Part shown: positions 8,037-29,794 of the stretch, one piece after another
How the letters are laid out: each line of letters begins with the position of its first letter
Position numbering within the stretch: position 1 is the first letter of the stretch
Source: an uncultured bacterium
GTDB lineage: Bacteria; Bacillota; Clostridia; Oscillospirales; Oscillospiraceae
Direction of reading: 5' to 3'
Length of the DNA: 64,000 nucleotides
Assembly (NCBI GenBank): GCA_948469375.1
Contig: CAOKLO010000009.1
Span: forward strand, 1 to 64,000
Program-made: the position numbers and the translations under genes
The notes under the pieces: model-generated
The model's input: the letters and a program-made list of their open reading frames with translations, nothing else
What the model was told of the DNA's origin: nothing
Database searches by the model: none

Positions 8037-9122
8037 TCATATATCAGAAATTTGGTGCAGCAAGTCTCGAATCATCAGGTTCTGTGGACAAGCAAGCTCG
8101 CATTTACCACACCTAATACAATCGGATGCCTTTTTCCAGCCTTGAGTACAGGATGTACATTCCTTTCCTTGCCTTTTTGCGTTGTACATAGCAAAAAGAT
8201 CCGGAATCGGTATAGCCTTTGGACAACAATCCACACAATATCGGCAGGCAGTGCAGGGGATGGCTTTCTCTCCAATCAAGATTGACCGTATATTCTCCAG
8301 TGCTGCCTGTTCCACCTCATTTAACTCGGCAGGAGCAGACATTGTGGCGGTGTTGTCCTCCATCATTTCCATACTGCTCATACCGGACAGGATCATGCGC
8401 ACATTAGGGAACTGGGCACAAAACCGCAGTGCGTAGCTAACGCTGCTCCCGCCACCCCATCCATCCAGTATTTGAGCCGCCTCTGGTGGAAGATCAGCGA
8501 GCTTGCCTCCCCGCACAGGCTCCATAACAATGACGGGTTTATTGTGCCGTTCGCATACCTCATAACAGGCCCTGCTCTGTACTTTGGGATCGTCGAAGTC
8601 CAGATAGTTGAACTGGAGCTGGACTATCTCAATTTCTGGGTGGTCAGTCAAAATGCGATTCAGCACATCCGCTGTGTCATGGAAAGACATCCCCACATGG
8701 CGAATCTTACCCTCCGTTTTCAACTGCTGGACAATTTCAAAGGCATGGCACATAGTATAACGGCGATATAGCGTGCTGTTGAGCGCGTGAAATAGATAGA
8801 AATCGAAATAGTCTACACCGCAGGCCGCCAACTGAGTTTCAAAAATGGGGCGGATATCATCCGCTGTGCGGAAATAACCATCACTGAGCTTATTGGCAAG
8901 GATGTAGGATTCCCTGGAATAGCGTGAAACGAGACTGGCGCGGACAGCGGTTTCACTGTGCCCGCTGATATATCCGTGGGCAGTGTCAAAATAATTGAAT
9001 CCCCGCTCCATAAAGCAGTCTACCATAGCACAGGTTTGGCTCAAATCCACCTGACTGCCATCCATAGGCAGGCGCATACAGCCAAAGCCAAACCGTTTTT
9101 TTATTTCAGGAAAGATTGTCAT
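8037..9122 (-). CDS. Aldo/keto reductase with C-terminal 4Fe-4S ferredoxin domain
   Basis: 361 residues. The N-terminal ~270 residues form an aldo/keto reductase TIM barrel (GFGCMRLP start, FDTAHGYISG with the catalytic Tyr, LANKLSD with the catalytic Lys, FYLFHALN). The C-terminal ~70 residues carry two cysteine clusters, CTACRYCVDCC and CIRCGKCELAC, typical of the ferredoxin-like tail of this subfamily. The ribosome site GAGGTG precedes the ATG. It sits 21 bp after the GH65 gene and 64 bp before the GH13 gene, so it is co-transcribed. The substrate is unknown. Its place in the operon suggests a sugar-derived carbonyl, but that is inference. Confidence 0.88.
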   Translation of the reverse strand: MTIFPEIKKRFGFGCMRLPMDGSQVDLSQTCAMVDCFMERGFNYFDTAHGYISGHSETAVRASLVSRYSRESYILANKLSDGYFRTADDIRPIFETQLAACGVDYFDFYLFHALNSTLYRRYTMCHAFEIVQQLKTEGKIRHVGMSFHDTADVLNRILTDHPEIEIVQLQFNYLDFDDPKVQSRACYEVCERHNKPVIVMEPVRGGKLADLPPEAAQILDGWGGGSSVSYALRFCAQFPNVRMILSGMSSMEMMEDNTATMSAPAELNEVEQAALENIRSILIGEKAIPCTACRYCVDCCPKAIPIPDLFAMYNAKRQGKECTSCTQGWKKASDCIRCGKCELACPQNLMIRDLLHQISDI

Positions 9123-9143: not shown

Positions 9144-11402
9144 TCATTTCAATGCCTGCTGCCAGCGGTCCCGAACAAAGATCAACTCCCCATTTATCGC
9201 AATTTCCAGAGGCTCCCCCTGTAGTAGCTCACAAACAAATTCCTCAGCGTTGAAGCGGATTTCCAGCAGCCTTTCGCGGTAATGCAGCCGCATTTTAACC
9301 TGTTCCCATTTTTCCGGACAGTGAGGCGAAAAGGAGAGCTGTCCCCCTTGGTAAAACATTCCGGCAAACCCGTGCATCAGCGCAATCCACGATCCTGCCA
9401 TGCTGGTGATATGCAGGCCATCCTCTGTGTCGGCGTTGAAGTTATCCAAATCCAGACGCGCGGCCTGCTGGTACAGCCGGTAGGCGTCTGCTTCAAATCC
9501 GCACGCCGACGCTACAGTGCTGTGCATACTGGGGGACAGGGAGGACTCATGGACAGTCAAAGGCTCGTAAAAAAGGAAATTTGCCCTTTTTTGTTCCAGC
9601 GTGAACCTGCGGGGGAAGTAGTAGAATGCTAAGATGACATCTGCTTGCTTGATGAAGCAGGAACGCAGGATGCGATCCCAAGACCAATGTTTGCACAGGG
9701 GAAGCTCATCGGCAGGGATTTCAGCGGCGGGGTAGATTTCCTTATCCATGAATCCGTCCTGCTGGATGAACAGCATAGTTTCTGGATCATAGTTCAAGTA
9801 CATTTTGTCTGCGACTTCCTGCATTTTCTGCATCTGCGCCGTGTCTAACGGGTAGGACAGCTTTTTTACCCAGTCCAGCGTATATTCGATGGACCACTTA
9901 GCCATATAATTGGTGAGAAAATCGTTGTTCACATTATTGTCGTATTCATTTGGGCCGGTGACACCCAAAAGCATATAACAATCTTTGTCTGGCTGATAGC
10001 TGGCGCGGCAAGCCCAGAAACGCGCGATCTCCACCATTACATGGATGCCATAATCCCGGATATAGCTTTCATCGCCGGTATATTCAGTGTAGCAGTAAAT
10101 CGCATATACCATACCAGCATTGCGGTGCAGCTCCTCAAACGTGATTTCCCATTCATTGTGGCACTCCTCGCCGTCAAAAGTCACCATAGGGTAAAGAGCG
10201 CCGGCCATCCCAATTTTTGCTGCGTTCTCTTTTGCCTTTTCCAGTGTATTATAGCGGAATTTCAACAGCTTCCGCGCCGTATCAGGTGTGGATGTAACCA
10301 GATACATGGGGAAACAATACCCTTCTGTATCATAGTAGGCCGCGCCGCCATATTTTTCCCCAGTGAAACCCTTGGGGCCAATGTTTAGCCGCTCATCACT
10401 CCCATCATAAGTGCTCCACAAATGAAACAGGTTGAAGCGGATGCCTTGCTGGGCGGCAATATCACCATCAATTGTTACATCGCATAGCTGCCACCTCTTT
10501 GCCCATGCTGCCGCCTGCCTCTGGCGAAGGGTAACTGTACCTTCATCTGCCGCGTGGGCAAGGATTCCGCCTCCCACTGAGGCCAATTCCTCGCGGGGGA
10601 TGTCCCGGGTGGTGACCACACTGACCAACTTTTCTATGTGGAACGCGTCCCCGGCACTTAACTCGGCCTCAAAACGATGGAATACGCAACGCTCTCCCTG
10701 AATGCAGCTCTGCCGTACACTGTCCTCCATGCAGTGGGCATGGGAGGTAAAGCCCACCGCAAATCGGGGGACATCAAACGAATTTTCCATGGTTTCGCTC
10801 TCCAAATACAGCCTGTCTCCTCCCTCCAGGGCTCGCAACACCCAGAACTGATCTCCATAATTTGCGTCTGAGTTCTTGACGTTGGCATCCAAGCCCGTCT
10901 CTATAGTCACGAAGCCCACATCATCCAAGGCGGTGACAGAGTAGGTCATGCAGGCAATTTGTTTGGTGTCAATCGAGAAAAAACGGGAGGACACAATCTT
11001 CAGCCGGCCGCTTTCTGTGCGCAGCACCATCTCCCTCTCCATGACACCGGTGCGCATATCTATCACCCGGCGGAATGTCTCAATAGGGGTCTGGGCGAGA
11101 TCAATTCTCCTGCCATTTACAGATAGGTGGAACATCAAAAAATCCGGCGCATTGATGACCTTCCCAAAATAGCGGGGGTATCCATTTTTCCACCAGCCTA
11201 CACGGGTTTTATCCGGCATCCAAACGCCGGCAATATATATGCCTTTTAGTGTATCTCCGGTGTAATCTTCCTCGTAATTTCCACGAGCGCCCATATACCC
11301 GTTTCCCAAGCTCATGACGGATTCAGCCGGCCGGTTTTCGCTGTGGTCAATTTCTGTCTGGATTAAGCAGAATGGATCAAGTTCTCGTAAAATACGTTTC
11401 AA
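9144..11402 (-). CDS. GH65 disaccharide phosphorylase (kojibiose/maltose/trehalose type)
   Basis: An intracellular inverting phosphorylase, about 752 residues, the normal length for GH65. It should split an alpha-glucosyl disaccharide with phosphate to give beta-glucose-1-phosphate and a hexose. Visible family motifs are SLGNGYMGARGNYEE near the N-terminus, GVTGPNEYDNNVNND (the catalytic Glu is in GPNEY), the phosphate-site HESSLSPSMHS, and DTEDGLHITSMAGSW. Kojibiose, maltose, nigerose and trehalose phosphorylases share these motifs, so specificity is open. The start is TTG at 11402, 8 nt after GAGAGGAG; a GTG at 11411 lies too close to that site. It is the first gene of the operon and has two copies of the predicted LacI operator just upstream. 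The beta-phosphoglucomutase half of the 19472-20713 fusion is the expected next step. Confidence 0.92.
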   Translation of the reverse strand: MKRILRELDPFCLIQTEIDHSENRPAESVMSLGNGYMGARGNYEEDYTGDTLKGIYIAGVWMPDKTRVGWWKNGYPRYFGKVINAPDFLMFHLSVNGRRIDLAQTPIETFRRVIDMRTGVMEREMVLRTESGRLKIVSSRFFSIDTKQIACMTYSVTALDDVGFVTIETGLDANVKNSDANYGDQFWVLRALEGGDRLYLESETMENSFDVPRFAVGFTSHAHCMEDSVRQSCIQGERCVFHRFEAELSAGDAFHIEKLVSVVTTRDIPREELASVGGGILAHAADEGTVTLRQRQAAAWAKRWQLCDVTIDGDIAAQQGIRFNLFHLWSTYDGSDERLNIGPKGFTGEKYGGAAYYDTEGYCFPMYLVTSTPDTARKLLKFRYNTLEKAKENAAKIGMAGALYPMVTFDGEECHNEWEITFEELHRNAGMVYAIYCYTEYTGDESYIRDYGIHVMVEIARFWACRASYQPDKDCYMLLGVTGPNEYDNNVNNDFLTNYMAKWSIEYTLDWVKKLSYPLDTAQMQKMQEVADKMYLNYDPETMLFIQQDGFMDKEIYPAAEIPADELPLCKHWSWDRILRSCFIKQADVILAFYYFPRRFTLEQKRANFLFYEPLTVHESSLSPSMHSTVASACGFEADAYRLYQQAARLDLDNFNADTEDGLHITSMAGSWIALMHGFAGMFYQGGQLSFSPHCPEKWEQVKMRLHYRERLLEIRFNAEEFVCELLQGEPLEIAINGELIFVRDRWQQALK

Positions 11403-11423
11403 AATAACCACTCCTCTCTTAAG

Positions 11424-11444
11424 TTATCGATAAATTATCGATAA
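11424..11444. promoter_or_regulatory. Tandem LacI-type operators upstream of the GH65 operon
   Basis: Two copies of the perfect palindrome TTATCGATAA (11424-11433 and 11435-11444) lie between the GH65 start and a plausible minus-strand promoter (TTGTGT, 16 bp, TATTAT, reading downward from about 11467). The same palindrome recurs at 12663 and 19401. Confidence 0.75.
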
Positions 11445-11547
11445 TATATTAAACAGTTAATCACACAATCCGTACTTTGTCAATAGAAATTGATCAAAAA
11501 AGCAGCCAGGCTTTTTACAGCCCAGCTGCTTTTGTTTTACAATCTGT

Positions 11548-12543
11548 CTATTGCTGCCTTAAGCGGGGAGGTGCGGTGGATTCTCGTACCATCAGGCGTG
11601 GTGTCTCCACAACTCGTGTCGCATTCTGGTATTTAATCAAGCTTTTCAAGCACATGAAAGCCCGAAACCCTACGTCCTTGATATTGATGCGCACAGTGGT
11701 GAGGGCTGGGGAAATGTAGGTGGAAATACGGATATCGTCAAATCCCGTCACGCTCATATCTTGCGGAACCTGGAGCCCTTGTTTCTTCAGCCACCGGATG
11801 GCGCCAATAGCCATTAAATCGCTGGCACATACCAAGGCGGTAACACCCTTATCCAACAGCGTTTCCGCCCCCTCCTCCCCAGAATGTTCACTGAAGTTTC
11901 CATGATACACCAATTCCGGATCATACGTAAGCCCACCCAAGGTAATGGCACTGAGAAACCCAGCAAAACGCTCCCGGCTACTGAAACTTTGCTGCTCTCC
12001 GTTAATGAAGCCAATCCGCCTGTGGCCCAGTTGGATCAAATGGGCCACTGCCATCCCTATGCCGGAAAGGTTGTCCGATGTCACACAAGAAATTAGCTTC
12101 CCTTCCACATAGTTATCCACTAAAACAATTGGATAGGCAATTCTATCCAATTGGTCAAAAAAGGGGCTACTATCATTAAGGCCAAGCACCATTGCACCAT
12201 CGAAGCGCTCCTGCTCCATAATGTGGTAAAAAGAAGTGCAGTTCTCGTCCTCAAGGCTGCGGATAATCACCTCATAACCGTGGCCTTCAGCCACTTGCTT
12301 GAAGGCCAGCATTACTTCATACAAATAGTACGTCACATGAGGGGCTTCCATGCGCCCCATAAATACGCACACCCGTTTGGAAATCTTCTGCCGTGCCCCC
12401 CCGGTATAACCCATTTCCGCAGCGGTTTCTAATACCGCCGCCCGTGTTTCTGCATTGATGTCATCTGCTCCGTTAAATGCTTTGTAGACCGTGCTGACGC
12501 TGATTCCCATCTGATTGGCAATGTCCTTTGCCTTGACTGCCAT
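11548..12543 (-). CDS. LacI/GalR-family transcriptional regulator
   Basis: 331 residues. The N-terminal helix-turn-helix and hinge (MAVKAKDIANQMGISVSTVYKAFN) are followed by a periplasmic-binding-like effector domain (VALVCASDLMAIGA-type segment, TGFDDI near the C-terminus). The start is ATG 12543, preceded by AGGTGG; the GTG at 12552 lies inside that ribosome site. It lies between the divergent phosphorylase and transporter operons and most likely represses both through TTATCGATAA, with a disaccharide or its breakdown product as inducer. This is inferred from repeated sites, not shown directly. Confidence 0.9.
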   Translation of the reverse strand: MAVKAKDIANQMGISVSTVYKAFNGADDINAETRAAVLETAAEMGYTGGARQKISKRVCVFMGRMEAPHVTYYLYEVMLAFKQVAEGHGYEVIIRSLEDENCTSFYHIMEQERFDGAMVLGLNDSSPFFDQLDRIAYPIVLVDNYVEGKLISCVTSDNLSGIGMAVAHLIQLGHRRIGFINGEQQSFSSRERFAGFLSAITLGGLTYDPELVYHGNFSEHSGEEGAETLLDKGVTALVCASDLMAIGAIRWLKKQGLQVPQDMSVTGFDDIRISTYISPALTTVRINIKDVGFRAFMCLKSLIKYQNATRVVETPRLMVRESTAPPRLRQQ

Positions 12544-12662
12544 TATATCCACCTACCGCTGCTAAATCCCAAGCCGCTGTTTGAGCAGCTTAAGATCATT
12601 ATTATTATTATTATATCATATTTATCCCCAAAACACAACGGCTTTTTTGCTCGTCTTAAAAA

Positions 12663-12707
12663 TTATCGATAAAAATAGTTGACATTATCGATTTCTTCTG
12701 ATAATCT
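12663..12707 (+). promoter_or_regulatory. Promoter and operator of the ABC transporter operon
   Basis: Perfect TTATCGATAA at 12663-12672 is followed by TTGACA at 12679-12684. A second half-match, ATTATCGAT, overlaps the spacer (12684-12692), and GATAAT or TAATCT near 12700-12707 is the likely -10. The operator placement across -35 and spacer fits repression by the adjacent LacI protein. Confidence 0.7.
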
Positions 12708-12828: not shown

Positions 12829-14139
12829 ATGAAAAGAATGTCCATGAAACGCATTGCAGCTTTGCTGGCATCCGCAGCCCTGGTACTTACAACTATGGTT
12901 GGCTGTACGCAGAGTCCCCCCTCCGAGTCTGGCACCGGGGCAAACACCGCCCCCATTTCCGATGCACCTGAACAGACCAATTCTCCCACAGGAGGCGGCA
13001 CCATTTCTGTATGGGCAGAACCGTCCTGCTATGCCTGGGTGCAGGAGATGGCTGCAAAGTGGGAGGAAGAAACCGGAAATCATGTGGAACTCACAGAAAT
13101 GCCTATGGTAGACGGCGACTATAAGCACGCTTTGGACGGCCCTGCCGGACTTGGGCCGGATCTGATGGCCGGCCCCCACAATGACGTGGGAGACAAAAGC
13201 ACTCAAGGAATGTACGCTCCCATCAAGCTCAGCGATGAGGCGCTGTCCTGCATTGTACCCGCTGCAGTAGATGCCTGCACCTTTGAGGATAACCTCTATT
13301 TGGTGCCACTGTACATGAGCACCAACCTGCTGATTTATAACAAAGATCTGGTTCCCACTCCGCCCGACACTTGGGATGAGCTGCTGGCAGTCATCAATGA
13401 TCCCAAGTTTGATAATAACGGCGACGGTTCCTTGGGCTTCCTTTGCAACCTAGGCGATTTCTACAACTCCGCTGGCTTTATCTGGGCCGGGGGCGGCTAT
13501 ATGTATGGCAATAATAACACCGATCCATCCGAGATTGGCCTGAATAACGAGGGTGCCGTGGAAGGCGCCACCCGGGTCAAGGAACTGTTCGGCCTGATGC
13601 CCAAGGGCATGGGTGACCGTACCACCGCCAATGATTTGATGCTGGGCCTGTTTACTGAGGGCAAGGTGGGCATGATGGTGCGCGGCGCCGACGTAATTCC
13701 CTCCTTGGTGGAGGCCAATATCAACTATGGCGTGGCCCGTATGCCCAAGCTTCCCAATGGCAATGTAATTGCAAACTACTCTGGGTTTACCGGCATGGCG
13801 ATGAGCGGCTTTGCCCATGAGCCTGAACTGGCCACAGAGTTCCTCAACTTTATTGTCCAGGATCAGTTTGCGGCCTCCTTTGCGGAAAAGACCGGCCTAA
13901 TCCCTTGCAACCAGAAATACCTGGACGACAACAGCTCCACTAATGAAACCATTAAGGCGTTCAATGAACAGATCTCCTACAGCGTGCCCATGGTGAAAAT
14001 CATTGAGGGCAACCAGACCTGGGATCCTATGCACGCCGCAATGGGTTCCCTGGCCACCGGTGCCGATCCAAAAGAAGCCCTGGACATCGCTGTCAAGCAG
14101 ATTGAGGATAATATCGCCTCGCTACACGCCGGCCAGTAA
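12829..14139 (+). CDS. Sugar ABC transporter substrate-binding lipoprotein (MalE-like)
   Basis: 436 residues. An N-terminal lipoprotein signal ends in the lipobox VLTTMVGC, with the diacylated Cys near residue 26 anchoring the protein to the outer face of the membrane. A family 1 extracellular solute-binding domain follows (ISVWAEPSCYAWVQEMAAKWEEETG; LYLVPLYMSTNLLIYNKDL; PDTWDELLAVI). It binds an oligosaccharide, probably the substrate of the GH65 enzyme. A strong ribosome site (AAGGAGG) precedes the ATG. Two permease genes follow; no ATPase gene is in the locus, so a shared MsmK/MalK-type ATPase elsewhere is expected. Confidence 0.92.
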   Translation: MKRMSMKRIAALLASAALVLTTMVGCTQSPPSESGTGANTAPISDAPEQTNSPTGGGTISVWAEPSCYAWVQEMAAKWEEETGNHVELTEMPMVDGDYKHALDGPAGLGPDLMAGPHNDVGDKSTQGMYAPIKLSDEALSCIVPAAVDACTFEDNLYLVPLYMSTNLLIYNKDLVPTPPDTWDELLAVINDPKFDNNGDGSLGFLCNLGDFYNSAGFIWAGGGYMYGNNNTDPSEIGLNNEGAVEGATRVKELFGLMPKGMGDRTTANDLMLGLFTEGKVGMMVRGADVIPSLVEANINYGVARMPKLPNGNVIANYSGFTGMAMSGFAHEPELATEFLNFIVQDQFAASFAEKTGLIPCNQKYLDDNSSTNETIKAFNEQISYSVPMVKIIEGNQTWDPMHAAMGSLATGADPKEALDIAVKQIEDNIASLHAGQ

Positions 14140-14212: not shown

Positions 14213-15532
14213 ATGAAGGGAAAAAACACAAAGCACCAAACCACTGCCACATTACTGGCGCTGATCCCGGGCTTTGGCCACTTTTATAACGGGCAGTTCT
14301 GGCAAGGCGGCGCAATTTTGATCGTTATGGCCGCCTATGGCTTTCTCACTGCAGAAACCATTTTCTCAGGCGTACAGGGCGGCGGGCTGGCCGGCCTGTT
14401 CACACTGGGCACAGTGCCAGGCCAGGATCATTCCCTGTTCTTTCTGGTGGAAGGGCTGCTTGCCTTGGTATTGGTCGCCGTCGGAATTGCGGTTTACCTG
14501 TTCAGCATTTTTAACGCGAGGAAAAACGGTCGTCTCCGGGATGAGGGAAAGCCGCTATACAGCCTGCGGGAGCAATATAAATCCGTGATGAACCGGGGCT
14601 TTCCATATCTGATTATGGCCCCCGGGCTGGTAGTCATGACCCTGGCCGTGGTGTTCCCCACTGTCACCAATATCATGATCTCCCTGACCAACTATAACGT
14701 CAATCATATGCCGCCCAAAAAGCTGTTTGGCTGGGTGGGGCTGCAAAACTATATTGATATGTTCACCATGGACTCGTGGATGAACGCCTTATTGCACACC
14801 CTGTCTTGGACAGTGATTTGGACGGTGTGTGCCACGTTACTCACCATTGTGCTGGGCATTCTGGTTGCAGTTATAGTCAATCAGAAGGAGATCCGCTGCA
14901 AGCGCTTTTGGCGCACCATCATCATCCTGCCGTGGGCAGTACCCGCTTTTATCTCAATTTTAATGTTTGCCGTTTTTTTCAATGATTCCTTTGGTGCTAT
15001 GAATCAGCAGGTTATCCCCTTCTTCGATAAGCTGCTGCCCTTTTTAAAGCTCTCGGCCCTGCCCTGGAAAACCCAGGTAGGTTTTACCCGCTTGGCGCTG
15101 ATTCTGATCCAGGGCTGGCTGGGCTTTCCCTATATTTTTGTGATGGTAACCGGCGTGCTCCAATCCATCCCCTCCGAGCTGTACGAAGCCGCCCAAATTG
15201 ATGGGGCCAGCCGGTATCAGCAGTTTAGGCGTATCACGCTGCCATGGGTGCTGGCAGCTACCGCACCGGTGCTTATTACTCAGTTTACCTTTAATTTTTC
15301 AAACTTCAATGTCATTTACTTGTTCAACAGCGGGGGGCCCGTCATTGCGGGACAGCTTACTGGTGGGACAGATTTGCTGGTGTCCTGGGTATACAAAATC
15401 ACTACAGAGAGTGTAACACGAGAATTTGGTATGGGCGCAGCTATTACCGTATTCATCTCGCTCATCGTTATGGTCATCGCACTGACCCAGTATATCCGTA
15501 CCGACGCCTTCAAGGGAGGAAATGAACGATGA
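14213..15532 (+). CDS. Sugar ABC transporter permease (MalF-like)
   Basis: 439 residues, inner-membrane subunit. It has an N-terminal extension with extra membrane segments, then the BPD_transp_1 permease domain in the C-terminal ~280 residues. The conserved cytoplasmic EAA loop is visible as LYEAAQIDGASRYQQFRRITLPW, which docks the ATPase. The ribosome site GAGGAGG precedes the ATG. Its stop overlaps the next permease start by ATGA, indicating translational coupling. Confidence 0.92.
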   Translation: MKGKNTKHQTTATLLALIPGFGHFYNGQFWQGGAILIVMAAYGFLTAETIFSGVQGGGLAGLFTLGTVPGQDHSLFFLVEGLLALVLVAVGIAVYLFSIFNARKNGRLRDEGKPLYSLREQYKSVMNRGFPYLIMAPGLVVMTLAVVFPTVTNIMISLTNYNVNHMPPKKLFGWVGLQNYIDMFTMDSWMNALLHTLSWTVIWTVCATLLTIVLGILVAVIVNQKEIRCKRFWRTIIILPWAVPAFISILMFAVFFNDSFGAMNQQVIPFFDKLLPFLKLSALPWKTQVGFTRLALILIQGWLGFPYIFVMVTGVLQSIPSELYEAAQIDGASRYQQFRRITLPWVLAATAPVLITQFTFNFSNFNVIYLFNSGGPVIAGQLTGGTDLLVSWVYKITTESVTREFGMGAAITVFISLIVMVIALTQYIRTDAFKGGNER

Positions 15533-16413
15533 ATGATGTGAGGCAGCGCAACACAGCCTGTAGAGCAAAAAATTTTCTGTGCGCCGCAGGAATGTACCTG
15601 TTCCTAATTGTGGTGTGCATCGTGATCATTTATCCCATTTTATGGATTGTCTTTTCATCCTTCAATCCCTCCCAGTCCATGTTTTCCTCTACGCTGGTGC
15701 CTAAAGAGATGAACCTGGATAACTACATCTGGCTGTTCACCAATCCGGACAGCAATTACCTGTTGTGGTTCAAAAATTCGATGAAAATATCCTTGATCGT
15801 CATGGTGCTACAGCTTATCCTAGTGTCCTTTACTGCTTACGCTTATTCGCGGTTTAATTTTCGGGGGAAAAAGTTCGGTTTGCTTATCTTCATGGTGCTT
15901 CAGATCCTTCCGCTCACCTCCGCTATGATTGCTTTCTATGCGTTGGGAATACTGCTTGGTTTGGTTCAGAACCACGCCCATGCCTACCTCATTGCTATTT
16001 ATGTTGGCAGCGCTATTCCTGGCAATACCTACCTAGTAAAAGGCTATCTGGATAATATCCCCAAGGAACTGGATGAAGCTGCCCACTTGGATGGTGCAGG
16101 AAATTTCACTACCTTTTTCCGCATCGTCATGCCCCTGGCAAAACCGATTTTGGCCGTACAGGCATTGTGGGCCTTTATGACACCACTTCAAGATTTTGTC
16201 ATCGCCAAACTAATTATCCGGGATCCCAACCTGAACACGCTGGCCGTGGGACTCCAATCCTTTGTATCGGGCAGCATGACAGGAGGCTCTCAGATGCAAT
16301 TTACCAAATTTGCCGCAGGATCACTGCTTATCGCCCTTCCCATTGCACTATTGTATGTATTCCTCCAGAAATATTTGATCAGCGGTCTGACTGCCGGAGG
16401 AACAAAGGGATAA
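15529..16413 (+). CDS. Sugar ABC transporter permease (MalG-like)
   Basis: 294 residues with about six membrane segments. The EAA loop is LDEAAHLDGAGNFTTFFRIVMPLAKP. It pairs with the MalF-like subunit to form the importer channel. It starts at an ATG overlapping the previous stop codon, after GGAGG. It is the last gene of the plus-strand transporter operon and is closed by the terminator at 16450. Confidence 0.92.
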   Translation: MNDVRQRNTACRAKNFLCAAGMYLFLIVVCIVIIYPILWIVFSSFNPSQSMFSSTLVPKEMNLDNYIWLFTNPDSNYLLWFKNSMKISLIVMVLQLILVSFTAYAYSRFNFRGKKFGLLIFMVLQILPLTSAMIAFYALGILLGLVQNHAHAYLIAIYVGSAIPGNTYLVKGYLDNIPKELDEAAHLDGAGNFTTFFRIVMPLAKPILAVQALWAFMTPLQDFVIAKLIIRDPNLNTLAVGLQSFVSGSMTGGSQMQFTKFAAGSLLIALPIALLYVFLQKYLISGLTAGGTKG

Positions 16414-16503: not shown

Positions 16504-17508
16504 TCATCTGTGGAAGCGGGGAAGGGCCCCATAACCCTGCTTTATTGCAGTGATAATATCATCTTCCCACTGCTCCAGGCTACTGTCAGGAATAGTTCCC
16601 TGTTCCTCCATGGCATGGAAAACCCGGCACATTCCCTCTGCCAAGCCAATCTGGGGCTGCCACTCGGGCACGTCCCGGCGCAGCTTGTCATTGGCGGCAT
16701 AGGTATGCTGCCCGAAAATCTCATTGCACAGCGCGAACCGTTCAGGGTCTATCTCCATGAGCTGGGATAGGGGAAGGCCCACCAGCTCTACCTCCTGGCC
16801 CAATACCTGCATGGCCGTCCGGTGATATTCTGCCCAGGTGGTGCACCCAGTCTGGGTTACGTTATAAACCTGACCGATGCAGTGCTGCCGGCCCATAACC
16901 CCCACGAAGCCGCGGGCAGTGTCCTCAGTATGCATATATTGGTGCAGGATGTCGCCGTCCCCGCAGATAAGGATAGGTTTCCCTTTTTTGACCCTATCGA
17001 TCCAGGTGTGCTCAGTAGTAAGGTTGCGCAACATCCCGCTCATTTCACTATACGAGGTACAGGGTTTCATGATGGTGACAGGGAACCCCTCGCGACGGAA
17101 GGCGTCCAGGTACATCAAATCTGCGGCGTGCTTGTTGATACCGTACTGTATACAGGGTTGAAACCAGTCCTCTTCCCGGATGGGAAAGTGGTTGAAGTGC
17201 TTCCCATAGGTACATACAGTAGAGGCGGTAATAAAGTGCTTTACATCCCGGAAGGCTTCAATGCTCACCTGTGCGTCTTGGGCATCAAAGCAAGTCAACT
17301 CAAAAGCGATATCGGGCTTCAGCTCACGCATCACACGGATATATGCCTGCTCGTTGTGCCGATCCCCGGAAATATACCGTACCGCCTCCGGATGAATAGA
17401 ACGCTCCATCCTGTCAAAACAAACAATGTCGTCATATCCTTGCCTAAGCAATTCCCGGATGATGTGCGCCCCAATATTTCCGTTCCCACCAGTCACAACA
17501 ATTCTCAT
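16504..17508 (-). CDS. NAD-dependent epimerase/dehydratase (SDR family)
   Basis: About 334 residues. The N-terminal Rossmann fold is MRIVVTGGNGNIGAHI with GxxGxxG, followed by an extended-SDR active-site region (STVCTYGKHFNHFP, and YGINKHAAD with the catalytic YxxxK). The substrate is not obvious; a nucleotide sugar or sugar is expected of the family. The start ATG at 17508 overlaps the stop of the upstream GH13 gene (ATGA), so the open frame further upstream is not used. It is co-transcribed with the neopullulanase-like gene under the 19401 operator. Confidence 0.82.
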   Translation of the reverse strand: MRIVVTGGNGNIGAHIIRELLRQGYDDIVCFDRMERSIHPEAVRYISGDRHNEQAYIRVMRELKPDIAFELTCFDAQDAQVSIEAFRDVKHFITASTVCTYGKHFNHFPIREEDWFQPCIQYGINKHAADLMYLDAFRREGFPVTIMKPCTSYSEMSGMLRNLTTEHTWIDRVKKGKPILICGDGDILHQYMHTEDTARGFVGVMGRQHCIGQVYNVTQTGCTTWAEYHRTAMQVLGQEVELVGLPLSQLMEIDPERFALCNEIFGQHTYAANDKLRRDVPEWQPQIGLAEGMCRVFHAMEEQGTIPDSSLEQWEDDIITAIKQGYGALPRFHR

Positions 17509-19223
17509 AACATGACCTCCTGTCCATTGGCAAAAATTTTGTACCCCATGGGAGCCAGGGAAAGAATTTGCCCCGCCTGTCCGTCCCACGGCAGCTTACA
17601 TTGTACCGGTTCGTCTCCTGGATTCCAAATCATCACAACTGTATCCCCATCCGTACGCCGGAGAAACGCCAGCGGGGCAGATCCCTGAATGGGTTGGGGA
17701 TCCAGCCAACGGAATACGCCCTCGGATAACGCTGGGTGGGCTTTGCGGAAGGCTACAAGGTTTCGATATAGCTTCAGCAGCGTTTGTCCCGCCATGTTTG
17801 CCGGCGTAAAGCACATACATCGTCTGGCTTTGATAAAATCTTCCCCGACCATCCCGGTTTCGTCCCCATAGTAGATGGCAGGCATTCCCACAAATAAGAA
17901 TTGGAATACCACAGAACAAGCAACGGCTTCTTCCCGTCCTTTGGCAAGGGTCAGCCACCGAGCAGTATCATGGGATCCCAGCAGATTATACATACACTGG
18001 GTCATGGGTTCCGGGTAGTGTGTAAGCAACCGATTTATCTCTTGCCGGAAAGCTGTAGCGCCCAGCGTGCCATCAAGGAAGTGGGAGCGACATATGGTGG
18101 TGAAAGGATAATTCATCACGCTATCAAACATATCTCCCGCGAGGTACGGTTGGGAGTCTCCCCATACCTCGCCGATGATAAGGGCCTCCGGATTGATAGC
18201 CTTTACCTCCCGTCGAAAATCCCGCCAAAAAGATAAATCAATCTCATTGGCCACATCCAGCCGCCAGCCATCGATGCCAAGTTGTGTCCAATACCGCGCC
18301 ACCTCTAACAGATAGCGGCGTACCTCGCGGTTTTCCGTATTCAGCTTTGGCATATGCCGTTCAAAAGAAAATCGCTCATAACGGTATACCTCATCCACTG
18401 CCAGTGGATATTCCTTGATGAAATACCAGTTGACATAGGGAGATTCAGAACCGTTTTCCAATACATCCTGGAAGCGTGGGAAGGTATCGCAGGTGTGGTT
18501 GAAAACCGCATCTAACACGACGCGAATACCCCGGCGGTGACAATCCATTAGCAGGGATTTGAAGTCTTCCAAGGTTCCCAGCCGGGAGTCCACTTTAAAA
18601 TAATCATAGGTATTATATCGGTGGCAGCTATTAGACTGGAAGATTGGGCACAGGTATAAAGCGTTGATCCCCAGTCCGGAGAGATAGTCCAATCTGTCCC
18701 GCAGACCTCCCAAATTGCCGCCAAGGTGAGCAACGACATCTGGTTCACTGCCCCAGGATGGAAAGTCCTCCCCGGTAGGGGTGGGCTCCTTACGGGCGAA
18801 GGAATCTGGGAAGATTTGATAAAACACCGCTTCCTTGGCCCACCCAGGTACAGTAATGGCATCTGTCCGGTTCAAATAAGGCATCTGGAAACAGCTCTCC
18901 GTACAGCCGTCTGCCGTCTGATGGCAGCCTATTTCATCCAAGTACCACACTGCGCCCGATCGATCCATCAATTCAAAATAATATTGGAGCCGACGGTATT
19001 TAGGTGTAATACTGATGCGAAAATAAGAAAACAGGCTGTCGCTGAGGATAGATTCCATTTCCACCGCCGCTATACTTTCATCTATACAGTATTTATCAAA
19101 CCAGAACAACCTTGCTCTAAGGATATCGTTGCTGCCTACCCGCAAAAGAATTGTGGCCGTACCATTTGTGTCATAATATGCGAATTCGTTTCTTGGTCGA
19201 TGGTAAACTGCTTCAACCTTCAT
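17505..19223 (-). CDS. GH13 neopullulanase/cyclomaltodextrinase-like enzyme
   Basis: 572 residues, cytoplasmic. The N-terminal ~120 residues resemble the CBM34-type domain of GH13 subfamily 20. The catalytic barrel follows with VLDAVFNHTC (region I), GWRLDVANEI (nucleophile Asp), IIGEVWG (Glu) and LLGSHDT (third Asp), then a beta-sandwich C-domain. Such enzymes cut alpha-1,4 and some alpha-1,6 bonds in short maltooligosaccharides or cyclodextrins. The start is ATG 19223 after GAGGAGG; the 25 codons upstream in frame lack a ribosome site. It is the first gene of a minus-strand pair controlled from the divergent promoter region at 19391-19442. Confidence 0.9.
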   Translation of the reverse strand: MKVEAVYHRPRNEFAYYDTNGTATILLRVGSNDILRARLFWFDKYCIDESIAAVEMESILSDSLFSYFRISITPKYRRLQYYFELMDRSGAVWYLDEIGCHQTADGCTESCFQMPYLNRTDAITVPGWAKEAVFYQIFPDSFARKEPTPTGEDFPSWGSEPDVVAHLGGNLGGLRDRLDYLSGLGINALYLCPIFQSNSCHRYNTYDYFKVDSRLGTLEDFKSLLMDCHRRGIRVVLDAVFNHTCDTFPRFQDVLENGSESPYVNWYFIKEYPLAVDEVYRYERFSFERHMPKLNTENREVRRYLLEVARYWTQLGIDGWRLDVANEIDLSFWRDFRREVKAINPEALIIGEVWGDSQPYLAGDMFDSVMNYPFTTICRSHFLDGTLGATAFRQEINRLLTHYPEPMTQCMYNLLGSHDTARWLTLAKGREEAVACSVVFQFLFVGMPAIYYGDETGMVGEDFIKARRCMCFTPANMAGQTLLKLYRNLVAFRKAHPALSEGVFRWLDPQPIQGSAPLAFLRRTDGDTVVMIWNPGDEPVQCKLPWDGQAGQILSLAPMGYKIFANGQEVML

Positions 19224-19390
19224 ATGCTTTCCTCCTCGTTGGTAATCGAACAATCTCCCTGTTCTTTTATGCACAGGAAAAAGATAGGACAGCAACACTC
19301 TGTAAAACAGTCTTATACGGCTGCCCCTTTTTATATCATACTGGTTTTTTCAAAACAAGTCAATCTTAAATCGAAGAAAATAAAAAATTT

Positions 19391-19442
19391 TATCGAAAAT
19401 TTATCGATAAATATTGATTGTGGGCTGAGGTGCTGGTATAAT
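19391..19442. promoter_or_regulatory. Divergent promoter region with LacI-type operator
   Basis: Perfect TTATCGATAA at 19401-19410, preceded by the half-match TTTATCGAAAA. For the plus-strand gene, TTGATT (19414-19419), a 17-bp spacer and TATAAT (19437-19442, extended -10 TGG) form a near-consensus promoter just downstream of the operator. Confidence 0.78.
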
Positions 19443-19471
19443 GAATGTCAAACTGAAAGGGAGTGATTGCC

Positions 19472-20713
19472 ATGGAAGTTCGCCTTGTTATATTTGATCT
19501 AGATGGCGTTGTGGTTAACACCGATGAATTTCATTTTATGGCGTGGGAACAGGTATTGCTGAACAAATGGGGCATCTGTCACACACGCGGGGCAGAGGAT
19601 CTTACTAAAGGCATCCCTCGGTATACCTGCATGGAGCTACTGGCAAAACACTATCATATTGCGGCTACTCCACAAGAACTGCACCGCACGGCAGACGAAA
19701 AAAACACAGTCTATCAAGAATTGTTGCGAACCATACTTTCCCAGCAACAAATTATGCCTGGGATCATGGAAACCCTCCAACTTCTTCAGGAGCACAATAT
19801 ACCTATAGCACTGGCATCTTCTAGCCATAGTGCAGCCTTTATCTTGGAAAAACTGGGACTAAATTTCGACTTTTGTGTAGATCCGGACTCGGTAACCCAT
19901 GGAAAACCTGCCCCTGATATTTATTTAGCTGCCGCATCTCATTTTGGACTGCCACCGGAGGCTTGTGTCGGTGTGGAGGATGCTGCCAGCGGCATAGCCT
20001 CTATACGCGCGGCAGGGATGTTCTGTGTAGGAATTGGTATGCCAGCCCTGGAAGGCGGAGCAGATGCGACTGTCAGTTCCACAGACCAACTCCCGGGAGT
20101 ATTTGCGTCCCTTTTGGGATTGCCACCATTCCTGAACTGGTTCACGGGCTTTTCTGTAGCGCTGACTTTCCCTTCCTCCTTGACAACGCAGACAACAACA
20201 CGCCGTCTTAGCCATATGGCAGGATTTTTTAGGGATCAAGCTACAGTCAAGGAACTGTTAGAACAGGGAATCGATCCAATAATCTATGAATTTCATGAAC
20301 TGGCCGCGCCAAAGCATCCGGGAGACGTTTCCTTTGGCCTTACAACCCTCTATCCTGGAAATATTGGCGAGGAATGCTTTATGACCAAAGGACATTTTCA
20401 TCAAATCCTGGAAACCGGGGAGGTTTACTATACTTTACAGGGCTCCGGGTTACTGCTGACTGAACACACCGACGGCACGGTGCGCTGGTTTCCACTGGTG
20501 CCCGGCAGCGCAACCTATGCGGCAAAGGGATTTGCTCACCGAATGGTGAACACAGGGGATAAACCGCTGATATGCTTTTTTGCATACAGGGCCGACGCAG
20601 GCCATGATTACAATACAATTGGCTTATCTGGCCTCCAAAAGCGGGTATTCCGCAGGGGAAATAGAATTGAGATTGAGTCCGCAAATGTGCGGGCGAAGGG
20701 GGAAATACAATGA
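19472..20713 (+). CDS. Fusion of beta-phosphoglucomutase and cupin-type glucose-6-phosphate isomerase
   Basis: 413 residues with two enzymes in one chain. Residues 1-~210 are a HAD-family beta-phosphoglucomutase: FDLDGVVVNTDEFHF (nucleophile Asp, general acid/base Asp, His of the substrate lid), ALASSSHSA, GKPAPDIYLAA (catalytic Lys) and GVEDAASGI. This half turns beta-glucose-1-phosphate into glucose-6-phosphate. Residues ~220-400 match the cupin phosphoglucose isomerase first known from archaea: RRLSHMAGFF, MTKGHFHQ with two metal-binding His, TGEVYYT with the Glu ligand, FAHRMVN with the third His, and ADAGHDYNTIG. This half makes fructose-6-phosphate. ATG 19472 is chosen because AAGGGAG lies 8 nt upstream; the GTG at 19463 falls inside that site. 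It is first in an operon with deoC and an aldo/keto reductase. Confidence 0.9.
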   Translation: MEVRLVIFDLDGVVVNTDEFHFMAWEQVLLNKWGICHTRGAEDLTKGIPRYTCMELLAKHYHIAATPQELHRTADEKNTVYQELLRTILSQQQIMPGIMETLQLLQEHNIPIALASSSHSAAFILEKLGLNFDFCVDPDSVTHGKPAPDIYLAAASHFGLPPEACVGVEDAASGIASIRAAGMFCVGIGMPALEGGADATVSSTDQLPGVFASLLGLPPFLNWFTGFSVALTFPSSLTTQTTTRRLSHMAGFFRDQATVKELLEQGIDPIIYEFHELAAPKHPGDVSFGLTTLYPGNIGEECFMTKGHFHQILETGEVYYTLQGSGLLLTEHTDGTVRWFPLVPGSATYAAKGFAHRMVNTGDKPLICFFAYRADAGHDYNTIGLSGLQKRVFRRGNRIEIESANVRAKGEIQ

Positions 20714-21405
20714 TCGACATAAACACACTGACAACGCAAACCCTTGCAGCATTATTTGACCACACGCTACTTCGGCCTAACGCAACGCATGAGCAACTTG
20801 CTCAACTTTGTACCCAAGCCATTCAGTATGGCTTTAAAATGGTAGCAATCAACTCTGCTCCCGTGGCCTTTTGCCGGGAATGTTTGAATGGGAGCCCTGT
20901 TCATGTAGGCGCAGCTATCAGTTTTCCACTGGGACAGACTACTACTGCGATCAAACTGGCTGAGACGGAACGTGCTATCCATGACGGTGCAGATGAAATT
21001 GATTATGTGATCAACCTTACCCAGGTAAAACAACACAACTGGAAGGCTGTGGAATTAGAAATGTCACAGCTCACACAGCTCTGTCGATTAAATGGTGTTG
21101 TCCTTAAGGCGATTTTTGAAAACTGTTATCTATCGAAGGACGAAATCTGCACACTTTCAGAAATTTCTAAAATGGTGTGTCCGAATTTTATCAAAACTTC
21201 CACTGGGTTTGGGCCTTCTGGGGCAGACGCGGAGGATGTCCGGCTGATGAAAACAATCGTGGGAGATTCAGTTTCAGTCAAGGCAGCGGGGGGAATCCGC
21301 AGTTGGGCGGAATGCCAGACAATGCTGGAGGCCGGTGCTGAGCGTATCGGAACTTCTAATAGTATAAAAATATTGGAAGAATTTTGCACATGGAGGAAAG
21401 AATGA
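20710..21405 (+). CDS. deoC: Deoxyribose-phosphate aldolase
   Basis: 231 residues. A class I aldolase that splits 2-deoxyribose-5-phosphate into glyceraldehyde-3-phosphate and acetaldehyde. Family marks are LFDHTLLRPNAT, DEIDYVINL and KTSTGFG, which holds the Schiff-base Lys, followed by VSVKAAGGIRSW. The ATG overlaps the stop of the fusion gene (ATGA), and its own stop overlaps the next ATG, so the three are coupled. A deoC in a disaccharide operon is unusual; the enzyme may supply acetaldehyde or act on another aldehyde here, which I cannot decide. Confidence 0.92.
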   Translation: MIDINTLTTQTLAALFDHTLLRPNATHEQLAQLCTQAIQYGFKMVAINSAPVAFCRECLNGSPVHVGAAISFPLGQTTTAIKLAETERAIHDGADEIDYVINLTQVKQHNWKAVELEMSQLTQLCRLNGVVLKAIFENCYLSKDEICTLSEISKMVCPNFIKTSTGFGPSGADAEDVRLMKTIVGDSVSVKAAGGIRSWAECQTMLEAGAERIGTSNSIKILEEFCTWRKE

Positions 21406-22238
21406 TGACGTTTGAAACCATGATTACGTTAAACAATGGGGTTCAAATCCCACAGCTTGGTTATGGCACTGCCCTCATCAGCGAAAACCAGAAGGAAACA
21501 GTACAATCTGTGCTAAATGCCTTGGAACTTGGATATCGGCATCTGGATACAGCTTCTGTATATTATAATGAAACAGCTGTGGGAGAAGCCATCCGTCAGT
21601 CCGGAATACCGCGCGATAAGCTGTTTGTCACTACCAAATTGTGGACAACAGATATGCGTATGGGGCGTGAATATGACGCATTCCAGGAAAGTCTGTCCCG
21701 GCTGGGACTGGACTATGTGGATCTTTATCTCATCCATTGGCCAGTCCGGGGTCGGTATCAGCAGAGTTGGGAGGTTTTGGAGCGCATCCGCGAGGAGGGA
21801 CTGGCCAGATCTATTGGCGTAAGCAATTTCAATCCACACCACATAGACGACATTATTTCCATGGGGGGGACGGTACCAGCTATTAACCAGTATCAAATGC
21901 ATCCACAGATGTCCTGCCCAGAGCTGAGAGCATATTGCCAGTCGCGTGGCACAGTTCTGGAGGCTTGCCAGCCACTGGGGCAAGGGCTGTATGTCTATGA
22001 TCCGATATTAAGCAGGATTGGACGGAAATATGGGAAAAGCGCTGTGCAAGTGGTGCTGCGCTGGGAATTGCAACACGGTGTGGTGACGATTCCAAAAGGT
22101 ACGCAGGTTGGGCATATAAGAGAGAATTGCAATCTGTTTGACTTTGAGCTAAACGCAGAGGATATGTCCGAAATTGATAGCATGAATATCAACCGTAGCA
22201 TCACCCCTGACGCTGATCCAGAGACTTTCACATTTTAA
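21402..22238 (+). CDS. Aldo/keto reductase
   Basis: 278 residues, NADPH-dependent carbonyl reductase of the short AKR type. Catalytic residues are visible: Asp and Tyr in HLDTASVYYNE, Lys in LFVTTKLW, His in YLIHWP. NADPH contacts are VTIPKGTQ and the C-terminal region. The ATG is the one overlapping the deoC stop, after GGAGGAAAG. Being coupled to deoC it could reduce the aldehyde product, or a sugar; that is inference. Confidence 0.9.
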   Translation: MMTFETMITLNNGVQIPQLGYGTALISENQKETVQSVLNALELGYRHLDTASVYYNETAVGEAIRQSGIPRDKLFVTTKLWTTDMRMGREYDAFQESLSRLGLDYVDLYLIHWPVRGRYQQSWEVLERIREEGLARSIGVSNFNPHHIDDIISMGGTVPAINQYQMHPQMSCPELRAYCQSRGTVLEACQPLGQGLYVYDPILSRIGRKYGKSAVQVVLRWELQHGVVTIPKGTQVGHIRENCNLFDFELNAEDMSEIDSMNINRSITPDADPETFTF

Positions 22239-26761: not shown

Positions 26762-28618
26762 TCACCCCCCGGATGGGTCTGGCGGCGGCCCATCCTGCTT
26801 TTTCATAGAATCAGGGATGATTGCCAGCGGCTGGCCCTCCTGTTTCTCCTGCCAGTGGCATCTGTCATCCTTCTGCCCAGTCCGTCCCTCCCGCGGGGGA
26901 CGGACTTTTTCTTCCTCCGGGGGCGCTAATAAAAACCTGTTTTGGATTTCCTGCTCCAGTTCCTGCCGTCCAGCGTAATACACCTTCCGCTGGCCATGCT
27001 CCGGCGTCTGATAGGGTTCCCCGAAGGTGATGCCCCAGTCCAGGAACAGCCGCAGCCTGGTCCGCATGGGGTGGGACCCGGTTTTCATCACCACAAACTC
27101 CCCCTTGGGGATGGACTTCAGCTCATCCGGTGTCATCAGCGCCCGCTCCGCCATCTGGAGGGACTGGCTGTTCTCCCCTTTGCTCCGGCTGATGGAGCCG
27201 GACTGTACCGTGTAACTGCCCAAGGCCCGGGAGAGCACGTCGGCGGTCTGGCTGTTGGGGGCAAAGCCGCCAAAGATGGTCGTTTGGCAGTTGTCCTGAA
27301 TGATCTCCGAGCCCTCCTTGCCATAATTCTTCTCCAACTGTGCCAAGGACTGGATAATGGGCAGCATGGTGAGCTTCCGGGAACGCCCCGCGCTGAACAG
27401 GGACAGCACATCGAAGGGCGGCATGGTGCCGAACTCGTCGCAGAACAGCACCACCCGGTTCTTCAGCTTACCCCCGTTCTCATCCGCCACGGAGAATAGC
27501 TCCCGGCTCAGGTTCTGGATCATCAATCCCGCCATAAAGTTCTTGGTCTGGTCCTCCTCGGGCAGCACCAGGAAGATGGCGGACTTTTTGCTGGCAAAGC
27601 TCTCTGCGTCCAGAGGACTGTCAAAGCAGATGGTCTGCTCCAACTCCGTGTCGAGGAAGGCGTTCAGCCGGGACAGCACGGTGGACAGCACCGAGGCCAT
27701 GGCCTGCTCCGAGGTGTTCAGCGCCGCCCCGGCGAACCATCGGGCCTTGTGCTCGGGCGGGAGGCGGCTCATCAGCACCTGGAAACAGCTTTTCCCCTTG
27801 GTGCCGGAGGGCTCCAAGAGGTCCTGCACCAGCTTGAACACCGACACGATATGGCGGCGCTCCTGGAGCTGACCATCAATTTCTTTGGGCGGCAGGAACT
27901 CCGCCAGCAGGAGGATCACAGCGGTGAGCAAGCCCTCGGCGGAATCGTAAAAAAATGCGTTCTGGCCGTAGCTGCCGCTGTCCCCGTCCGGGTTGATGAT
28001 GGTCTTGGACAGGATCTTGGCATACTTCTCCGCCTTGGCCCGCGCCGCCAGATCATCGGGATGCTCCACCGCCTGGTCCATGTAGGCGTTGGCCAGGGTC
28101 AGGAAATTGAACCCGTCAGACCTGGTTGGGTTTCGCAAATCGATGATGGAGATCTGATAACCGTAGTATTTTTCTGCGATGGCTCCGTAGTTCCGGGCCA
28201 GATCCCCCTTGGTATCCAGGGCCAGAAAGCTCATCCCGCAGGCGCAGGCGTACTCCAGGTTGGGGTACAGAAAAAATGCCGTTTTGCCTACGCCCGCCGC
28301 GCCGATCATCAGGCAGTGGATGTCGTCGCTGTCAACCAGGGCGGTGATCTTGCCCTTCTTCCCCTGGGAGCCCAGCACCAGCCCCTGGACTTTAGGAAGG
28401 TCTTTGCCCTGCCGCCACTGGGCGGGGTGGAAGGGGACGCGGGCGAAGGTCTTGGCGATCTCCTTGGGTTCGGCCCAGCGGGCGGTGCCGTGCTGGCCGT
28501 CGCCCACGGGCTTGGACTTGATGCTGTCCAGCGACCCGTGGTTGGAGGCATAGGCGATGCCACCGATGAGCGCGAAACCCACGACGGCAAAAATAATGAG
28601 GATGAATTCTTGAGACAT
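26762..28618 (-). CDS. VirD4/TraG type IV coupling protein
   Basis: 618 residues. A membrane ATPase that brings the relaxase-DNA complex to the type IV secretion channel. One N-terminal membrane segment (residues ~5-25) is visible, then the TraG/VirD4 P-loop domain with Walker A GAAGVGKTAFF (~residue 108) and Walker B VVLFCDEFGTM (~395). Conserved DLRNP and GGFAPNSQTADVLSRALG follow. The C-terminal ~70 residues are polar and low in complexity. The ribosome site GAGAGG precedes the ATG. Confidence 0.93.
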   Translation of the reverse strand: MSQEFILIIFAVVGFALIGGIAYASNHGSLDSIKSKPVGDGQHGTARWAEPKEIAKTFARVPFHPAQWRQGKDLPKVQGLVLGSQGKKGKITALVDSDDIHCLMIGAAGVGKTAFFLYPNLEYACACGMSFLALDTKGDLARNYGAIAEKYYGYQISIIDLRNPTRSDGFNFLTLANAYMDQAVEHPDDLAARAKAEKYAKILSKTIINPDGDSGSYGQNAFFYDSAEGLLTAVILLLAEFLPPKEIDGQLQERRHIVSVFKLVQDLLEPSGTKGKSCFQVLMSRLPPEHKARWFAGAALNTSEQAMASVLSTVLSRLNAFLDTELEQTICFDSPLDAESFASKKSAIFLVLPEEDQTKNFMAGLMIQNLSRELFSVADENGGKLKNRVVLFCDEFGTMPPFDVLSLFSAGRSRKLTMLPIIQSLAQLEKNYGKEGSEIIQDNCQTTIFGGFAPNSQTADVLSRALGSYTVQSGSISRSKGENSQSLQMAERALMTPDELKSIPKGEFVVMKTGSHPMRTRLRLFLDWGITFGEPYQTPEHGQRKVYYAGRQELEQEIQNRFLLAPPEEEKVRPPREGRTGQKDDRCHWQEKQEGQPLAIIPDSMKKQDGPPPDPSGG

Positions 28619-28629
28619 GGCGGCACCTC

Positions 28630-28887
28630 TCAGTACGACTGTACCATGCCGCCACAGCGGATTTCGTGATCTTCATCCAGCGTCTGCCCCGGTAGGGCCT
28701 GCTCATCCTGGAACCGCTCCGGGAACAGCTCGGCGGCGGTCTGCCGCAGGATGTCCAGGTCGTTGGTCTGGGCGGTCTGGTAGACGCTGACCAGCTCGGC
28801 ATCGTCCAAAACGGATCGGGGGAAGTAGGGCCGCAGGAACATGACCTCGCTCACCTGTCTGCAATAGCTACGATAATACCTGTTCAT
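28630..28887 (-). CDS. Small conserved ICE protein, unknown function
   Basis: 85 residues, soluble, with an Arg/Tyr-rich start (MNRYYRSYCRQVSEVMFLRP) and an acidic middle. It starts within the end of the Toprim gene after GGAGG (20-nt overlap) and lies 11 bp before traG, so it is translated as part of the transfer operon. I do not recognise a domain. Confidence 0.75.
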   Translation of the reverse strand: MNRYYRSYCRQVSEVMFLRPYFPRSVLDDAELVSVYQTAQTNDLDILRQTAAELFPERFQDEQALPGQTLDEDHEIRCGGMVQSY

Positions 28888-29794
28888 TCTGTTGTTCCTC
28901 CATCGTCTGTTGAAAATTTGCGCACAGGTCCTCGTTCCAATCCTTGAGGACGGGCACCAGCGCGTTCACCGTCAGCCCCTTCTCCCGGGCCAGCGCCGCC
29001 AGCCGCCGCATGGCCAACTGCCCCGCCTGGTCGTTGTCCAGCGCGAAGTGGACGGTGTCGATCTGCGGATACCGTTCCAGCATCCCCAGCATGGGCTGGG
29101 ATGAGGTGCCGCACAGGGCCACATAGCTGTGCCTGGCCCAGGCGCTGTCGTGGAACTTGGAGATAAAAGACAGCATATCGATGGGGGCCTCAAACACCAT
29201 GAGCTGGTTGCTGGAGCCGGGCCAGTTGAAGGCGTACCGAAAGTCGCTGCCCTCCACGGTCATGCGGAAGGACTTGCCCTGGCTGTTGGTACTGCGCTTG
29301 TGGGCGTGACGGGGTGTGCCGTCCTTGTCCATGCCCACAAATACCGCGTTGTGGTACTTTTGATCCTCGTAGACCAGCCCCAGCTTGACGAAGGTGGTGA
29401 GTACGTCCCGGTCCAGGTGGCGGTGCTTGAGGAGATAGGCGAACACCCGCCGGTTGTCCTTATTGGCGGGCGGCAGCTCGAAGGGCTTCTTCACTTTTTC
29501 TTTGGGCTTGTTCACCCGGGGGCAGAGCTGGCTGACGTCCTCGTTCAGCAGGGCCAGCACCGCCTCCTGATAATTCATGCCGTAGAACTCCTTGAGAAAT
29601 GTCACAGGCCCGCCGCCCTTCTCGGCGGCATGGTCGTACCACTCATTGCCCTGGACGGTGACGCTGTGGTTGCTGGCCATGCGGAACTCCAGCCCGGAGC
29701 GGACGAGGGGCTCCCCCTTGAAGCGGAGGAACTCCACCAGGTCTACCGCGTTGGCCTGGAGCTTCTGTTCTTCTGTGAAATGGATGTAGGGCAT
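28868..29794 (-). CDS. DUF3991/Toprim-domain protein (primase-like)
   Basis: 308 residues. The N-terminal ~110 residues resemble the primase-associated zinc-finger-like fold without the Cys residues (VDLVEFLRFKGEPL, GGGPVTFLKEFYGMNYQEAV). The C-terminal Toprim domain shows MVFEAPIDMLSF (acidic Glu) and HFALDNDQAG (DxD-like). Such proteins accompany relaxases in Firmicutes ICEs and may prime the complementary strand after transfer. AGGAGG precedes the ATG. Confidence 0.88.
   Translation of the reverse strand: MPYIHFTEEQKLQANAVDLVEFLRFKGEPLVRSGLEFRMASNHSVTVQGNEWYDHAAEKGGGPVTFLKEFYGMNYQEAVLALLNEDVSQLCPRVNKPKEKVKKPFELPPANKDNRRVFAYLLKHRHLDRDVLTTFVKLGLVYEDQKYHNAVFVGMDKDGTPRHAHKRSTNSQGKSFRMTVEGSDFRYAFNWPGSSNQLMVFEAPIDMLSFISKFHDSAWARHSYVALCGTSSQPMLGMLERYPQIDTVHFALDNDQAGQLAMRRLAALAREKGLTVNALVPVLKDWNEDLCANFQQTMEEQQNEQVLS

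Follow-up and report, generated by a model that had tools for sequence, protein, structure and literature searches.

The systems closest to the protein described here are the beta-phosphoglucomutases (TIGR01990; structures 3nas and 1lvh) and the cupin phosphoglucose isomerase (PGI) of P. furiosus (4lta, 1j3p), together with two proteins in which a beta-phosphoglucomutase-like HAD domain is already part of a fusion. The bifunctional MtlD (NF046057; 7oct) carries such a domain joined to an adjacent sugar-metabolic step, and OtsB1 of M. tuberculosis, which we take to be composed of HAD and GH65 parts, is presumably a further precedent for a fused domain of this type; a cupin PGI is absent from both. 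GH65 phosphorylases yield beta-glucose 1-phosphate. In the P. furiosus PGI the metal ligands are His88, His90, Glu97 and His136, and Tyr152 and His158 are tied to proton transfer (PMC6627849).

In the window, i.e., the whole stretch of 64,000 nucleotides analysed, a fusion of these two known enzymes lies within a maltose phosphorylase cluster (Table 1) and is confirmed, conserved and apparently rare. Its N-terminal half resembles the beta-phosphoglucomutases in having the core and cap from end to end, the key residues and a GH65 partner, but differs from them in being fused C-terminally to an isomerase and in scoring slightly below the equivalog cut-off. The C-terminal half shares with the P. 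furiosus PGI the three His and one Glu and the equivalents of Thr71, Tyr152 and His158, but it is bacterial, follows an N-terminal mutase and groups with bacterial cupins that often sit in another cluster.

Table 1. Genes and sequence elements at the fusion locus (window coordinates)
Feature	Position	Strand	Basis or remark
GH65 phosphorylase	9144..11411	-	closest solved relative maltose phosphorylase 1h54
Two operator-like palindromes before GH65	11423..11445		1 and 2 mismatches
LacI-family regulator	11548..12552	-	
Operator-like palindrome, LacI/SBP gap	12662..12673		1 mismatch
ABC solute-binding protein (SBP)	12829..14139	+	
ABC sugar permease 1	14213..15532	+	
ABC sugar permease 2	15529..16413	+	
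NAD-dependent epimerase/dehydratase family gene	16504..17589	-	conserved cluster
Cyclomaltodextrinase/neopullulanase-type GH13 (CDase)	17505..19298	-	1ea9, 473 bits
Operator-like sequences, CDase/fusion gap	19389..19411		TTTATCGAAAAT with 2 mismatches, TTTATCGATAAA exact
Sigma-70-like promoter before fusion	19414..19442	+	TTGATT-17-TATAAT, consensus match only
Fusion gene, beta-phosphoglucomutase + cupin glucose-6-phosphate isomerase	19472..20713	+	413 aa; open frame, Pfam, orthologues L102/L103
Beta-phosphoglucomutase half, residues 1-215	19472..20116	+	Pfam Hydrolase, TIGR01990, PDB 3nas/1lvh alignments
Cupin PGI half, residues 216-413	20117..20713	+	PF06560, solved cupin PGIs
deoC-type aldolase	20710..21405	+	TIGR00126, 217 bits; start overlaps fusion stop
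DkgA-like aldo-keto reductase	21384..22238	+	below DkgA equivalog cut-off

The fusion frame opens with ATG at 19472 and contains no internal stop; an alternative in-frame GTG start at 19463 would give a protein of 416 aa. Pfam Hydrolase matches the mutase half at residues 3-182 (92 bits), and GPI (PF06560) matches the isomerase half at residues 244-385 (79 bits, above the gathering cut-off of 20.7). Among solved structures the mutase half is closest to the beta-phosphoglucomutases 3nas, 4g9b, 4gib and 1lvh, and the isomerase half to the cupin PGIs 4lta (P. furiosus) and 1j3p (about 150 bits), so that the initial annotation of a HAD beta-phosphoglucomutase followed by a cupin PGI is borne out. 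The NCBI beta-phosphoglucomutase equivalog TIGR01990 (cut-off 189.4 bits) was nevertheless missed by all three fused proteins now known, at 183.9 bits for that of the window and 182.8 and 183.5 bits for its two orthologues, and the subfamily TIGR02009 was passed by the fusions of the window and L102, with that of L103 falling below it (147 against 153.35).

The active sites of both halves appear intact. In alignment with 1lvh, presumably the L. lactis enzyme, positions D8, D10, T16, H20, K45 and R49 correspond to D9, D11, T17, H21, K46 and R50 of the window protein, and K76, S114, S116, K145, E169 and D170 to K77, S116, S118, K145, E169 and D170. We take the compared positions to be catalytic or binding residues, among them the nucleophile and acid/base Asp, Lys145, Glu169/Asp170 and the cap residues Arg49 and Lys76. 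Among the 18 positions of 1lvh tabulated the window differs at L44, S52, A115, K117 and N118, the last being Ser120 in the window and Asn in both orthologues. In each of the three fused proteins the PGI ligands His88, His90, Glu97 and His136 fall on H308, H310, E317 and H356, and Tyr152 and His158 on Y372 and H378; all three keep the key residues of both sites. The earlier claim of a mutase with catalytic Asp, Lys and lid His and of a metal site of three His and one Glu is thereby placed on alignments to 1lvh and the P. furiosus PGI.

Whether the fusion is real was decided by its orthologues. An alignment-based scan with one genome per GTDB species confirmed at least 540 loci, of which the best 80 were kept, and two of these 80 carry the whole fusion, namely L102 (76% identity) and L103 (57%; recorded as Candidatus Fournierella merdavium). 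The search for the domain pair across genomes that had been proposed as a check thus yielded two further fused proteins. The source assembly is fragmented (143 contigs, 91.6% complete, 6.24% contaminated), which could favour an assembly or sequencing error that joined two adjacent genes, but the same fusion with the same junction length recurs in these two other assemblies, the three proteins aligning without gaps up to residue 394. With two orthologues fused over their full length, a sequencing error becomes very unlikely, an artefactual fusion was ruled out on their account, and we give the error explanation next to no chance; the stop or frameshift between the domains that would have undone the initial annotation is absent. 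Between the window and L102, dN is 0.12 for the mutase and 0.16 for the isomerase, with dS of 2.4 and 1.4 respectively, so both halves are under purifying selection, the joint (residues 206-240) being more variable (dN 0.34); in the comparison with L103, dS has reached saturation. The GC content of the gene (19472-20710 compared) is 49% in the window and 65.5-65.7% in the two orthologues.

The fusion seems rare. It was found in two of 42 genomes of the genus, the second of which (G1200) shares the coordinates of the L102 record; in one of 400 sampled genomes of the family (E to 1e-45), a sample that did not list G1200 and in which nine others have a separate cupin gene; in one of 295 genomes of the order; and in one of five in the genus of L103. 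The other 78 of the best 80 scanned loci have the cupin as a protein of its own. The fused three form one branch in the tree (support 100/99), which fits a single origin. A single-protein scan of genome contigs gave no match, both orthologues having been found by the alignment-based scan; none of 439 matching plasmid records covers 80% of the fusion, and no fusion was found in the viral contigs searched. The suspicion that no such fusion had been characterised agrees with the open-access literature, where the titles and abstract openings of the papers listed pointed to none on such a fusion.

The neighbourhood is conserved along with the gene. The order LacI, SBP, two permeases, epimerase, CDase, fusion, deoC and aldo-keto reductase is found in all three fusion genomes, and GH65 adjoins LacI in each; in the L103 cluster the SBP was matched in part and an extra GH13 gene lies between permease and epimerase. 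Against solved structures the GH65 protein scores 758 bits with 1h54 and 399 bits with the next, a kojibiose phosphorylase. The stretches fetched from the L102 and L103 genomes gave no match to the gene for an iron-sulfur aldo-keto reductase (8037-9122), and the second GH13 gene either lies at another place (L103, 45%) or likewise gave no match; since neither is kept alongside, they do not belong to the core cluster. Shortly downstream of the sugar cluster lie conjugative-element genes (26762-29794; a T4SS coupling protein and a Toprim/DUF3991 protein), and at 318-6182 the window encodes a protein of 1954 aa in which three S-layer homology stretches occur together with a YDG domain.

A common regulation with GH65, as first proposed, is supported by a candidate operator-like motif before GH65, between LacI and SBP, and before the fusion. 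The palindrome TTTATCGATAAA, allowing up to two mismatches, has six matches in the window against 0.66 expected, a number reached in none of 100 shuffles. Five of the six are intergenic and lie in these three gaps, the sixth being at 22467, beyond the aldo-keto reductase. The palindrome is present in the same three intergenic stretches of the other two fusion genomes, but one of its four matches in L102 (7757) lies where the CDase gene begins, and the L288 stretch has three, which one of 200 shuffles reached. Sigma-70-like promoter sites numbered 10 in the stretch against 5.3 expected.

From the residues and the setting, we consider that the fusion probably serves a maltose/maltodextrin operon as a bifunctional enzyme converting beta-glucose 1-phosphate to fructose 6-phosphate. 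The GH65 enzyme would split maltose with Pi into glucose and beta-glucose 1-phosphate, which the N-terminal half would convert to glucose 6-phosphate via an aspartyl-phosphate/glucose 1,6-bisphosphate cycle, as its conserved residues suggest. The C-terminal metal-dependent cupin, judging from its metal ligands and the Tyr/His pair, would then isomerise glucose 6-phosphate to fructose 6-phosphate. Provided that both halves fold, the proximity of the two active halves is certain, and the fusion would fix their production at 1:1 and hold both steps together, apart from the ordinary PGI; whether through channelling or not, it might also keep glucose 6-phosphate out of the bulk, as first proposed. 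The genome also has a match to the PGI family PF00342 (46 bits, partial, in an open frame of 426 aa) and two other beta-phosphoglucomutase-like matches, one ending 43 bases from a second GH65 gene and the other crossing a TGA. In view of these separate PGI and mutase matches the fusion looks dedicated to its operon and not to housekeeping, and it probably serves its own operon; by the same token, a PGI of another family in the genome makes the need for the isomerase half not obvious.

Also against the maltose-pathway reading are the overlapping deoC, which plain glycolysis does not explain, and the shortfall of all three fused proteins at the beta-phosphoglucomutase equivalog. Stop and start overlap (ATGA) in the window, L102 and L103 alike, and both observations would fit a mutase half acting on another sugar 1-phosphate, e.g., a deoxysugar or pentose 1-phosphate passed to the coupled DeoC. 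We regard this as improbable, as the closest solved relatives of the mutase half are named beta-phosphoglucomutases with identical key residues where compared, the product of GH65 phosphorylases is established, and the window DeoC departs from ordinary DERAs in its pocket motifs. Both of its Lys motifs (KTSTGF and KAAGG) and the Asp of EID are retained, but Ala replaces the cysteine of VCV and EID is followed by Tyr, against Met, Leu or Ile in the ordinary DERAs compared (the roles of these residues being our assumption), and a second, more ordinary deoC copy (38%) is present in the genome. The overlap in three genomes, the aldo-keto reductase, the DeoC motifs and the gene order at L304 leave room for a further possibility, to which we attach a still smaller chance, namely an ATP-sparing route in which fructose 6-phosphate from the fusion would be cleaved by DeoC to glyceraldehyde 3-phosphate and dihydroxyacetone, the latter being reduced to glycerol by the aldo-keto reductase. 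At L304:6025-10125 (G1368, in the genus of L103) a deoC that is a 53% relative of the window gene, a kinase read as ROK from its sequence, a separate cupin gene and ABC permeases stand in a row, and by motif reading this cupin has Tyr at the Tyr152 position. Against the ATP-sparing route, a cupin gene was found in none of the five fetched stretches with this deoC subfamily (L335-L339, L337 being 6.3 kb); in one of these genomes a different contig gave a weak match to the cupin. Were the route true, maltose carbon would reach triose phosphate with no kinase step for that half.

The maltose-pathway reading also requires that the cupin half be a PGI, which is likely, not certain. The fused three sit inside a clade of bacterial cupins with mostly Phe at position 152 (supports above them 97/84 and 95/88), and among 59 neighbour proteins of that clade that were scanned, hand-chosen from 96 listed, there were 12 PTE, 10 KDPG/KHG aldolase and seven 2-hydroxyacid dehydrogenase proteins. 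In most of 24 separate cupin loci examined, the gene immediately upstream codes for about 312 aa; a gene of this kind is annotated as shikimate dehydrogenase in Shinella (one such product gave no Pfam match at 1e-8), and the PTE gene is weakly phospho-furanose-lactonase-like, so the separate cupin cluster probably belongs to another pathway than glycolysis. Clustered separate cupins of this kind are often seen among L104-L181 (e.g., L105:5937-10542 and L114:7040-10201) and L291. The cupin half might accordingly keep the clade's own isomerase activity and act on something else that the mutase or the operon produces; this strikes us as unlikely, if somewhat less so than a different mutase substrate. 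At position 152 the fused three carry the Tyr of the archaeal PGI, against Phe in 74 of the 78 separate cupins among the best 80 loci, which would agree with PGI chemistry having been either regained or retained; no AroE-like/PTE/KDPG-aldolase cluster was seen among the scanned neighbours of L113 and L154, the rows nearest to them; and the fusion's own cluster is of the maltose phosphorolysis type, in which the expected mutase product is glucose 6-phosphate. Thr71 was dropped as a discriminating residue, Ser and Thr both occurring in either group. The fused three lie on a long branch (1.24) in a tree midpoint-rooted for drawing only, which leaves their placement unsure, and the grouping with L113 and L154 has support of 80/89 in the later tree and 96/95 in the first, whose bootstrap had not settled. 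The initial annotation placed the cupin PGI in archaea and a few bacteria, and of this it is "few bacteria" that did not hold: among 398 genomes sampled from the phylum, 95 score above the PF06560 cut-off, though some of these matches do so barely and are perhaps other cupins. As many bacterial cupin matches named glucose-6-phosphate isomerase sit in the uncharacterised cluster, their annotation needs checking.

If it works as proposed, the fusion would be a naturally occurring enzyme that takes beta-glucose 1-phosphate through two steps, useful for in vitro maltose phosphorylase cascades, and a clean test case of whether joining consecutive enzymes changes flux in a cell that also has a separate PGI. 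Adjacent but still unfused genes for mutase and isomerase were considered as its precursor and set aside: no mutase match adjoins the separate cupin gene in 18 stretches from the order, family and class (tblastn to 1e-8) or at the 78 separate-cupin loci of the best 80 (to 1e-10), the latter set sharing some records with the former and including stretches as short as 3-4 kb. The nearest mutase matches are at least 2.7 kb off (L116, L091/L111, L093). One of the 59 scanned neighbours is a HAD_2 protein (L158:9290-9916, Lysinibacillus macroides) with a weak likeness to the mutase half (E 0.14). Other long PF06560 frames were also rejected as fusions of this kind, those at L007, L008 and L120 running out of frame through the upstream AroE-like gene, those of G371 and G518 being the other GPI type of about 250 aa read with the overlap of an upstream gene, and that of G573 being this type by itself. 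At L047:1327-2796 (G459) a GH31 C-terminal region is in frame with a PF06560 domain of the 250-aa type, and this frame is possibly a different GPI fusion or a lost stop.
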